Below are positions 6,925 through 16,860 of a DNA stretch of 64,000 nt, in pieces (position 1 is the stretch's first letter; each line of letters begins with the position of its first letter). Source of the DNA: Candidatus Obscuribacter phosphatis (GTDB lineage Bacteria; Cyanobacteriota; Vampirovibrionia; Obscuribacterales; Obscuribacteraceae); contig MOYA01000001.1 of assembly GCA_001899315.1 (NCBI GenBank), forward strand, positions 2,963,556 through 3,027,555, written 5' to 3'. Under the pieces are notes generated by a model that searched no databases, was not told the DNA's origin, and saw only the letters and a list, made by a program, of their open reading frames with translations. Made by a program: the position numbers and the translations under genes.

Positions 6925-8900
6925 TCGGCCTTCGGCGCCTTGAGCAGCATGCGACCATTGCCCACCCGCCTGGTCACCTGTCGATCATCAAAGAAAGAAA
7001 GCAAAGCCATAATATATTTGCGGCTAATCTGCATAGCCTCTCTAAAATCTGAAGGCGAAATATCGCGCTTAGACTGCCAGAGCTTACCCAAAATCTTATG
7101 GGCCCGGGCTATTTCTTTTGCAGAAGCAGCAAAGTCATAAGCGACAATAAAGACTTCCTCGCGCTTTTCAAAGGCCTCTAGAAATTGCTTGGCGTCCCTC
7201 AAGCTAAGCCCGGCAAGAATAGCCAGCTCTTTGATTTCTAATATTGCTTTTTCGTCAACGAGGGCAAGCAAAGCGGCAGCCTCAGCACTGACGCCACTCT
7301 GGGTGGTGGCAACAATGCGGTCACCCTGACGCTCTAGACCGGCTTGCTTGGTCATATTTTCATCTGCCAGCACTGCTGCTATTACTTCACCAAAGACTTC
7401 GCGCGCGAGGAAAGGACAAACCGCCGTGCGTAATGACTCGATAACCACAAAGCCCTGCCCCGCCGCAAGCTGCTTATGCATAGCCGACTTGACCGATTCT
7501 TTCAGCTTTTCAAAGCGGGCATAAGACAAAAAATGCCCTGCCAAATGTTCGATTTCATTTGCTTTGGTAAGCGACCGGACCTCAAGGCTAGATGGTAAGA
7601 AACAGGACAATTCAGCCTCTTGCAAAGCCAGGCGGGGATACTCAGCGAGCACCAAGTCGAGAGCCCGTTGATAAGACAGTTCGGCCAAAGCAGAAAGCAA
7701 GGGCGCCACAGCATGGCGCTTGAGATAGGTCGGGCGGTCGCCGGTCAAGACAGTACCGCCGGCGATATCACTGCCGGTCTCGCCCCAGCGCATAATAAAG
7801 CGGTCTTGCAAGCGCACAGGCGCCCGGTAACGCCCGTCTTCCGCTTGAAAGGCCAACTGGGCAAAATACCCGCCCTCTTGCCGTTTATCGAGCCAACGCA
7901 GATAAGCCGGGTACTCGGCCGTGCCATGGTAAATTTTCACCTGCATGGGCAACTTACAATGCTCGAGCTTGCCGCCCTCAGCATCTTGCAATACCGCCAA
8001 AATGCCGCCAAAGGTCTGGGGCTCAGACCCAGTAATAATCACTCCTCGGCTTAAAGCAACTTCTTCTTTGAAGGTGAGATTGACCGCCAGCCTTTGCCCT
8101 GGCAAGGCTTTTTCCAGCTTACGACCAAAATTTTCAAGCCCACGCACGCGTGCTGCAGCACTCAAGCCCACCCCGGTCAGATAGACCGAATCACCGCTCT
8201 TCAACTCACCTTCAAGTAGTGTGCCGGTGACGACTCGTCCATAACCAGCTTTGACAAAAACTCTGTCGACCGCTAAAAAAGCAGCGCCAGCCTTCTTTGT
8301 ACCAAGGGCTTTAGCCTGCTCTTTTAAATCGGATTCGCCCCGAGGCAAGCCACGCAACACCCGCTCAATATCTAGCTTTAGCGCCTGAACGCTCTCTTGC
8401 GAATGGGCATTTACCCGCGCACAATGCAAGAGCGCCAGTCCATAATCTTGCAAAAGTCGGCGGCAATCTTCCTCGCTCTCTTCGACTGTCTTTTTGCCGC
8501 TGCCGGACCCTACTAGGTCAACCTTGCTGAGAGCCAGTATGACGCCCTTGACTCCAAGCAGACTAAGAATTTTAATATGCTGAATCGTCTGGGGCATCGG
8601 TCCTTCATCTGCCGCCACCACCAGTAGTGCTATCTCCACCCCGCCGACACCAGCCAGCATGTTTTTCAAAAACTTGCCGTGCCCGGGCACATCGATAAAA
8701 CCGGCAATAATCTCAGGTCTGTCGTCTTCGCCCTTAAAGATCAGGGGCGCAAAACCCAGATCGGTTGTCATCTGCCGCTCTCGCTCTTCTTTGAGACGGT
8801 CGGTATCGACGCCGGTCAAAGCCCGCAACAAGCTTGTCTTGCCGTGGTCGACATGGCCGGCCGTGGCCAGAGTGAAATGAGCAGTGGGCAATTTTTCCAT
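6921..8900 (-). CDS. selB: Selenocysteine-specific translation elongation factor SelB
   Basis: SelB carries selenocysteinyl-tRNA to ribosomes paused at UGA codons marked by a SECIS hairpin. The 659 residues show G1 GHVDHGKT (15-22), the GVDTDRLKEE stretch, G3 DVPGHG (70-75) and G4 SKVD (125-128). EF-Tu-like domains II/III follow, with four winged-helix repeats at the C-terminus ending in the SRKYIMALLSFFD and TRRVGNGRMLL pattern of the SECIS-binding WH4 domain. The usual RGITIDLGFA of switch I is RQMTTDLGFA here, a small departure. selA, selC and selD are not in the window. The start is the only one that keeps the G1 motif near residue 15. Confidence 0.93.
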   Translation of the reverse strand: MEKLPTAHFTLATAGHVDHGKTSLLRALTGVDTDRLKEERERQMTTDLGFAPLIFKGEDDRPEIIAGFIDVPGHGKFLKNMLAGVGGVEIALLVVAADEGPMPQTIQHIKILSLLGVKGVILALSKVDLVGSGSGKKTVEESEEDCRRLLQDYGLALLHCARVNAHSQESVQALKLDIERVLRGLPRGESDLKEQAKALGTKKAGAAFLAVDRVFVKAGYGRVVTGTLLEGELKSGDSVYLTGVGLSAAARVRGLENFGRKLEKALPGQRLAVNLTFKEEVALSRGVIITGSEPQTFGGILAVLQDAEGGKLEHCKLPMQVKIYHGTAEYPAYLRWLDKRQEGGYFAQLAFQAEDGRYRAPVRLQDRFIMRWGETGSDIAGGTVLTGDRPTYLKRHAVAPLLSALAELSYQRALDLVLAEYPRLALQEAELSCFLPSSLEVRSLTKANEIEHLAGHFLSYARFEKLKESVKSAMHKQLAAGQGFVVIESLRTAVCPFLAREVFGEVIAAVLADENMTKQAGLERQGDRIVATTQSGVSAEAAALLALVDEKAILEIKELAILAGLSLRDAKQFLEAFEKREEVFIVAYDFAASAKEIARAHKILGKLWQSKRDISPSDFREAMQISRKYIMALLSFFDDRQVTRRVGNGRMLLKAPKAD

Positions 8901-15367: not shown

Positions 15368-15616
15368 CTGCAAAAGACTCATCGCCCAGGATGTAACATG
15401 AGCGAGCCAGCCTAGCTTGTGAGCACCGATTCGATAGCCAAGTATGACAATCAATTCTAAAGCTTACACACAAAATGCTGAGCAAAAAAAATACCTAAGC
15501 AGATAATGGCTCAATACCGAGGTTTAGCGCACGTTGATTTTCTCTCTTACCCGAATTAGGGAATTCACCGCAAACTAGGCAGATGCTGTAATGAAATAAC
15601 TAAGCGGAGAGCAAGC
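15368..15616. other. Non-coding stretch before the UGA-interrupted ORF
   Basis: I see no supported gene, RNA or repeat here. The only signal is the GGAG ribosome-binding site at its 3' end serving the ATG at 15617. Together with flanking weak frames this makes 14.8-16.3 kb the least gene-dense part of the window. Confidence 0.5.
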
Positions 15617-16030
15617 ATGAACTCAGCAGAAAATTACTCAGCAGAAAATAACTCGGCAGAAATCTCCTTCAAACAATACGTGAGCATGGCTAGCAAGCTA
15701 CTACCGGAGCTTGAGGGACTGCAACGCTTAAGCAACCTCGATCAAGCCTTTCGCTTTCTAGAAAGTATTGGCATTGCTGTCAAAGAAATGGATCTGCTCT
15801 CTCAAGATGAATTTACACTTGACCTAATTTTTCCGATCAGCAAATCATCTCGGTGCCTTGTGCTTGCAGCCAGTTGAGTTGGACATCTGACGGCGGTCGC
15901 CGTCTTTGAAAGCAAACCAACAAACGATGAACTACTTAGCTGGCACCTGCAGATGGGCTGGAAACCGCAGGTATCTGCACTGCAAGATGGCGAGAAGATA
16001 CTTGGCTATGCAGCCTGCATATATAGATAA
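15617..16030 (+). CDS. 137-codon ORF with one in-frame UGA (codon 87): candidate selenoprotein or nonsense-mutated gene
   Basis: The ATG has GGAG 8 bases upstream. The frame runs to a TGA at 15875-15877 and then continues in the same frame, with no other stop, to the TAA at 16028-16030. The continuation reads as ordinary protein (VGHLTAVAVFESKPTNDE, then DGEKILGYAACIYR), and the strand before the UGA (RCLVLAAS) would join smoothly to the strand after it. The N-terminus carries 2.8 copies of a 15-base repeat (NSAEN units). A SECIS-like hairpin follows the UGA. Other genes here use TGA as a normal stop, so a changed genetic code is excluded. The UGA could also be a mutated TGG, CGA or GGA codon. 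I recognise no family. Confidence 0.5.
15889..15904 (+). promoter_or_regulatory. SECIS-like hairpin 11 bases after the in-frame UGA
   Basis: GACGGC-GGTC-GCCGTC is a perfect 6-bp stem with a GGUC tetraloop. The loop starts 17 bases after the UGA, within the spacing of known bacterial SECIS elements. From memory of the literature, the E. coli fdhF SECIS also has a GGUC apical loop, read by SelB through its G and U. The bulged U of that element is not present here. Confidence 0.4.
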
Positions 16031-16212: not shown

Positions 16213-16229
16213 TTGAGAATTATTCTCAA
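16213..16229. promoter_or_regulatory. Fur box (iron-responsive operator)
   Basis: TTGAGAAT-T-ATTCTCAA is a perfect 8-1-8 palindrome containing the 7-1-7 Fur core (TGAGAAT-n-ATTCTCA; consensus TGATAAT-n-ATTATCA). It lies 100 bases before the flavodoxin ATG and over the predicted start of transcription. Fur with bound iron would repress, so flavodoxin would be made under iron starvation. Confidence 0.8.
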
Positions 16230-16329
16230 TAAAAACACAAAACCAAACGACACTCATTTTCAAATAGAAACACCCATTGTCAAAAATGGGTCAGATTTTT
16301 GCATCTATAAATCAATAAGGAGCAATCAA

Positions 16330-16860
16330 ATGAAAGGCAAATTGTTCTTCGGAACACAGACCGGCACCACCGAAGCCGTAGCCGAACAAATACAAAAGGA
16401 ACTAGCCGACCTGGTAGGCGAATGTCGCAATATCTATGGCGTCAAGAAAGAAGAATTGGAGGATGCCGACTTCCTAGTGTTAGGCGGCTCCACTTGGGGC
16501 GATGGCGAGCTGACCGACGACTTCCAAGATTCACTGCATATATTGGAAGCAGCCAATCTAAGCGGCAAAACGGTAGCTCTGTTTGCCTTGGGTGACCAAT
16601 ACGGCTATGGCTATAACTTTGTCTCTGCCATGAAAATTGTCTATGACACAGTAAAAAAATGCGGCGCCAGAGTGATTGGCAGCGGGGTCAGTCGCGCCGG
16701 TTTCGATTTTGAACATTCAGAGTCTTTGCAAGACGACGCCTTCCTCGGCCTGGTTCTAGATGAAGTCAATCAGCCGGAAATGACCGAAAAGCGCATCAAA
16801 GAATGGGTCTCGACAGTCAGACAAGAATTGGCCCAGGCTGATTTGACTTCGGTTGGCTAA
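16330..16860 (+). CDS. fldA: Flavodoxin
   Basis: Flavodoxin is an FMN-binding electron carrier that replaces ferredoxin when iron is scarce. The 176 residues start KGKLFFGTQTGTTEAVAEQ with the phosphate-binding loop TQTGTT at 9-14, then LGGSTWGDGEL and GDQYGYGYNFVSAM around the isoalloxazine site. The length fits long-chain flavodoxins (IsiB/FldA type). I start at 16330 because AAGGAG lies 8 bases upstream; upstream in-frame codons would cross the Fur box. The Fur operator supports iron control. Confidence 0.95.
   Translation: MKGKLFFGTQTGTTEAVAEQIQKELADLVGECRNIYGVKKEELEDADFLVLGGSTWGDGELTDDFQDSLHILEAANLSGKTVALFALGDQYGYGYNFVSAMKIVYDTVKKCGARVIGSGVSRAGFDFEHSESLQDDAFLGLVLDEVNQPEMTEKRIKEWVSTVRQELAQADLTSVG

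Follow-up and report, generated by a model that had tools for sequence, protein, structure and literature searches.

How is one to read a bacterial gene whose frame meets a TGA codon after 86 sense codons and then runs on, in the same register, for 50 more? The question is raised by a locus of Candidatus Obscuribacter phosphatis lying within a stretch of 64,000 nucleotides, hereafter called the window, in which the original prediction had seen a candidate new small selenoprotein. The layout that it described is correct: GGAG is followed by ATG 15617, 86 sense codons, TGA at 15875-15877, 50 sense codons and TAA at 16028-16030. We conclude, with a probability of about 0.96, that the frame 15617-16030 would be one gene encoding a 137-residue selenoprotein of an undescribed family, in which UGA87 is decoded as selenocysteine (Sec). 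The features of the window that enter the argument are the following.

15617..16030, + strand: predicted complete selenoprotein gene, 137 amino acids, Sec87, TAA stop (from the sequence and from relatives, which are homologous on either side of the TGA)
15600..15616, + strand: ribosome-binding site (GGAG) upstream of ATG 15617 (from the sequence)
15875..15877, + strand: putative Sec codon UGA, codon 87 (TGA in 30/30 genes stopped in frame here; Cys in L063, as TGT, and in L054 and L055, as TGC)
15889..15904, + strand: predicted SECIS hairpin, 6-bp stem 15889-15894/15899-15904, GGUC loop 15895-15898 (from covariation, synonymous-site conservation and folds)
15662..15874, + strand: conserved N-terminal half, residues 16-86, with SQDEFTLD (family motif QDE[FY][ST]HD; from alignments of relatives)
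15878..16027, + strand: conserved C-terminal half, VGHLTAVAVFESKPTNDELL..GW.P..S..GEKILGYAAC (from the alignment of relatives and the differences from L003)
about 6945..8870, - strand: selB, Sec-specific elongation factor (TIGR00475, 256.6 bits, cut-off 242)

Downstream of the selenoprotein gene lies a flavodoxin-like gene, named by its sequence only (16213-16860, + strand); such a neighbour is found also at the same-genus locus L033 and was not seen beside the family gene elsewhere.

Searching genome contigs with the single protein returned no match, the peptide patterns being too specific, while the alignment-based search succeeded. Nine members were found in the 60 related genomes searched, all nine with TGA at the same codon, and a profile built from them recognised 13 of 50 genomes of the same taxonomic family (one of the 13, G070, weakly). 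It also reached one acidobacterial MAG and Planctomycetota, among them Limnoglobus roseus with its complete genome (NZ_CP042425). Further profile searches added members in these two phyla, and the family is now known from Obscuribacterales (Cyanobacteriota), Planctomycetota and Acidobacteriota. Its distribution is patchy even inside the taxonomic family of the window genome, as the 13 positives out of 50 indicate; the rest of Cyanobacteriota showed no member among 339 sampled genomes, save one match at chance level, and the viral contigs and plasmids searched contained no relatives. Four weak matches (L031, L056, L072 and L074) were dismissed as due to chance.

Codon 87 is TGA in 30 genes, counting that of the window, and TAA or TAG in none; relatives with as little as about 26% identity keep the identical codon, and the homology extends to either side of it. 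Since an ordinary stop would be expected to vary among the three stop codons, with a chance below 1e-10 of the all-TGA outcome if the genes are independent, TGA at this position does not behave as an ordinary stop. In the copy of Limnoglobus roseus PX52 the predicted Sec peptide would read ECT-U-FGVVTAVAVWDH. Past the TGA, the window gene and L003 differ by 1, 4 and 16 changes at the first, second and third codon positions, hence mostly at the third. One genome carries two similar copies, L029 and L032 (G061:C56 and C429), both with TGA. A same-genus copy has a further in-frame TAA eleven codons past the TGA (L004:1753-1755, G001:C62), due to breakage of the gene or to an assembly error, and a planctomycete copy (L053, L057; G176:C127:135684-135991) has a frame shift exactly at the Sec codon, compatible with the loss of 4 nt or with faulty assembly; some family copies thus appear to be broken or misassembled.

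Cysteine is the sole sense residue found at the Sec position among relatives. One acidobacterial member, the full-length L063 of genome G493, carries TGT in place of the Sec codon, within the sequence YETTCLGTVTAIAIWDHRP, and its hairpin region has lost the fold (-0.1 kcal/mol). The distant planctomycete proteins L054 and L055 have TGC, their Cys aligning with Sec (hhalign probability 94.7%, E 6e-8). The phylogenetic tree, in which deep branches are poorly settled, places L063 among the Sec forms, and this position suggests that the change in L063 went from Sec to Cys. The Cys form does not go neatly with loss of the Sec trait, because G493 keeps selB with selC not detected; since this genome is a draft assembly, with L063 on a 12-kb contig, we draw no firm conclusion from its selC.

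The hairpin downstream of the TGA is as the original prediction described it, with a perfect 6-bp stem (GACGGC/GCCGTC) and a GGTC loop at 15889-15904, 11 nt past the TGA; the spacing from UGA to loop is 17 nt and the stem-loop alone folds with -9.6 kcal/mol. The SECIS of Escherichia coli fdhF has a GGUC loop on a short GC stem at a similar distance past its UGA. Short GC stem and GGUC loop are common to both elements, whereas the window stem lacks the bulged U of fdhF and its loop lies about one nucleotide closer; moreover, and differently from the fdhF type, the loop is AGUU in some family members, and four have no such hairpin. The missing bulged U had been raised as an objection, but it is not needed in the general model of bacterial SECIS, which specifies a loop 3-9 nt long, with G in its first two positions, a stem of 4-16 bp and a spacing of 16-37 nt (PMC13188914). 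The window hairpin lies inside these published limits for stem, loop and spacing (PMC13188914). The suspicion that it may arise from common codons was well founded, for when the same peptide is recoded synonymously all six pairs still form in about 14% of cases. By itself, therefore, the hairpin is weak evidence, and it is the relatives that make the case decisive.

Of the 30 TGA genes, 26 have the hairpin at the same place. It is solely over codons +4 to +9 that third-position entropy falls far under expectation, z lying between -12 and -16 for +5 to +8; the signal is somewhat inflated because the set comprised hairpin-bearing members only, and z is near zero at most codons away from the hairpin. 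Across all 30 genes, 90.6% of the cells pair, with two-sided changes in four of the six pairs (15 two-sided cells), a covariation score matched by none of 500 shuffles and by no slid register. The variants include CAGC-GGUC-GCUG in L006, CCGC-GGUC-GCGG in L010, GAGC-GGUC-GCUC in L062 and GGGC-AGUU-GCCC in L060.

The four exceptions (L028, L052, L059 and L069), which together span three phyla, retain TGA without the GGUC hairpin and fall outside the bSECIS model. All of them, and also L053, contain an identical UCUCCGUGUGGGA associated with a VSVWD-like peptide (L028:1717-1755; L052:1678-1716; L059 and L069 on the minus strand). In the hairpin-less members this stretch lies a few bases further downstream, even in the A+T-rich L069, and the region around it may constitute a second type of SECIS. 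Pairing 22-26 with 32-36 would offer the four exceptions another hairpin, which is not claimed because it folds weakly in three of them.

As for the selenium machinery, the selB gene that the original prediction recognised in the window is confirmed, and selA, selC and selD, none of which it had seen there, are all found in the genome outside the window (tRNA-Sec 73.7 bits, selD 349 bits). Every genome carrying a TGA copy has a tRNA-Sec that scores over the Rfam cut-off. Among genomes of the same taxonomic family, the gene occurs in 9/27 genomes with selC and in 0/9 without it (p 0.05), a tie that is modest when taken alone. In mechanistic terms, SelB would bring Sec-tRNA(Sec) and bind the GGUC hairpin 17 nt past UGA87, and ribosomes would insert selenocysteine there and read on to TAA.

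Could the same data be obtained in other ways? A single change of TGG, CGA or GGA to TGA would give the same local sequence and leave a pseudogene, and broken copies do exist in the family (L004 and L053). Yet this nonsense mutation, which the original prediction had itself entertained, cannot explain the data because 30 genes of three phyla share TGA at this codon; codon 87 of the relatives is either UGA or Cys, with Trp, Arg and Gly all absent, the same-genus genomes keep TGA and have no TGG, and coding constraint persists past the TGA. We regard it as extremely improbable. Conservation of both halves would be expected also if the TGA were a true stop and the halves were made as separate small proteins, whether or not translationally coupled. 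However, L063, like the distant L054 and L055, is one uninterrupted protein in which Cys occupies the junction, the position is never TAA or TAG, and the predicted fold passes through the site at high confidence, which together render two products very unlikely.

There is finally the question of which residue would be inserted. UGA can be read through without Sec, and the four members devoid of the standard hairpin might be taken to favour a standard amino acid. Against this, the only sense residue at the position is Cys, the hairpin fits the bacterial SECIS model (PMC13188914) and all genomes that carry a TGA copy have selC, leaving such read-through with scarcely any probability. The selenoprotein originally proposed is thus borne out by TGA and Cys relatives, SECIS covariation and the Sec machinery of the genome.

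The predicted core motif of the family is [TS]-U-x-G-x-x-T-A-V-A-V-W-D-H-x-P, in longer form TUxGxxTAVAVWDHxPxxDELL; in full it reads QDE[FY][ST]HD...[TS]-U-x-G-x-[LVI]-T-A-V-A-V-W-D-H-x-P-x-x-D-E-L-L...G-W-x-P...G-x-x-[LVIM]-x-G-[HY]-A-[AS]-C. None of the 32 members matched NCBIfam, a library with models of many of the 119 catalogued selenoprotein families, and Pfam offered no fitting family, its lone match (E 0.008 in one member) being taken as chance. Sequence searches of PHROGs and the PDB gave nothing convincing, and Rfam had no match at the locus. The table of 119 prokaryotic selenoprotein families published in 2026 has no entry alike in domain or motif (PMC13188914), and a literature search of open-licence papers retrieved no report of such a protein in Cyanobacteriota, Planctomycetota or Acidobacteriota. 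Consequently, this is very probably a genuine and previously undescribed family of small selenoproteins. With the catalogued families it shares UGA-coded Sec, a downstream SECIS and Cys relatives at the same position, and it resembles the hypothetical families DG, DW, DF and GOS_B in having no assigned function (PMC13188914).

An AlphaFold model based on 32 sequences, with Sec entered as Cys, has pLDDT 92 and pTM 0.83, and in the predicted structure Sec87 comes directly after strand 80-86, ahead of strand 90-97. Fold searches of the PDB with two models gave no match; for the model of pLDDT 92 there was none at E <= 0.001, with TM-scores of about 0.3 or less among the matches listed. The family is thus like the selenoproteins of thioredoxin fold (Trx, Prx, GPX-like and SelW-like) in having Sec near the end of a beta-strand and a presumed redox role, but differs from them in lacking a UxxC or CxxU motif and, for the model of pLDDT 92, any match to the thioredoxin fold.

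What, then, could the protein do? No operon or gene neighbourhood is conserved across the family, only local neighbour pairs being seen, and the argument for function consequently relies on chemistry. A single Sec, usually accompanied by one C-terminal Cys, suggests a selenol redox protein: a small protein in which the Sec selenol at the strand end would be the reactive group. A redox role in general appears reasonably likely on such chemical grounds. Most members may use the conserved C-terminal Cys (GHAAC) as resolving thiol; this Cys is missing in L043 and L051. Among the local neighbours, an ABC-permease-like gene follows the two Gemmataceae copies, and in three acidobacterial genomes (L077, L080 and L082) a homologous large gene of 730-810 aa lies 10-170 nt upstream on the same strand. 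Tentatively, and with more doubt than belief, one may picture a selenoenzyme family with a fold new to solved structures, in which Sec is usual and probably older, the Cys of L063 is derived and perhaps two kinds of SECIS operate, the GGUC hairpin and the element around UCUCCGUGUGGGA in four TGA members.

About 119 prokaryotic selenoprotein families or subfamilies have been catalogued, and a thioredoxin-like fold or a redox motif characterises most of them (PMC13188914); the new family, which spreads over three phyla, would have neither. It has probably been overlooked because nearly all its relatives carry UGA, and methods that need several Cys relatives drop such families; the authors of deep-Sep state that their own tool filters out families without several Cys relatives (PMC12013277). 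Automatic annotation is expected to split each gene of the family in two, and a named strain whose genome is complete, Limnoglobus roseus PX52, carries a copy. Families consisting almost wholly of Sec forms can hence still hide in sequenced genomes.
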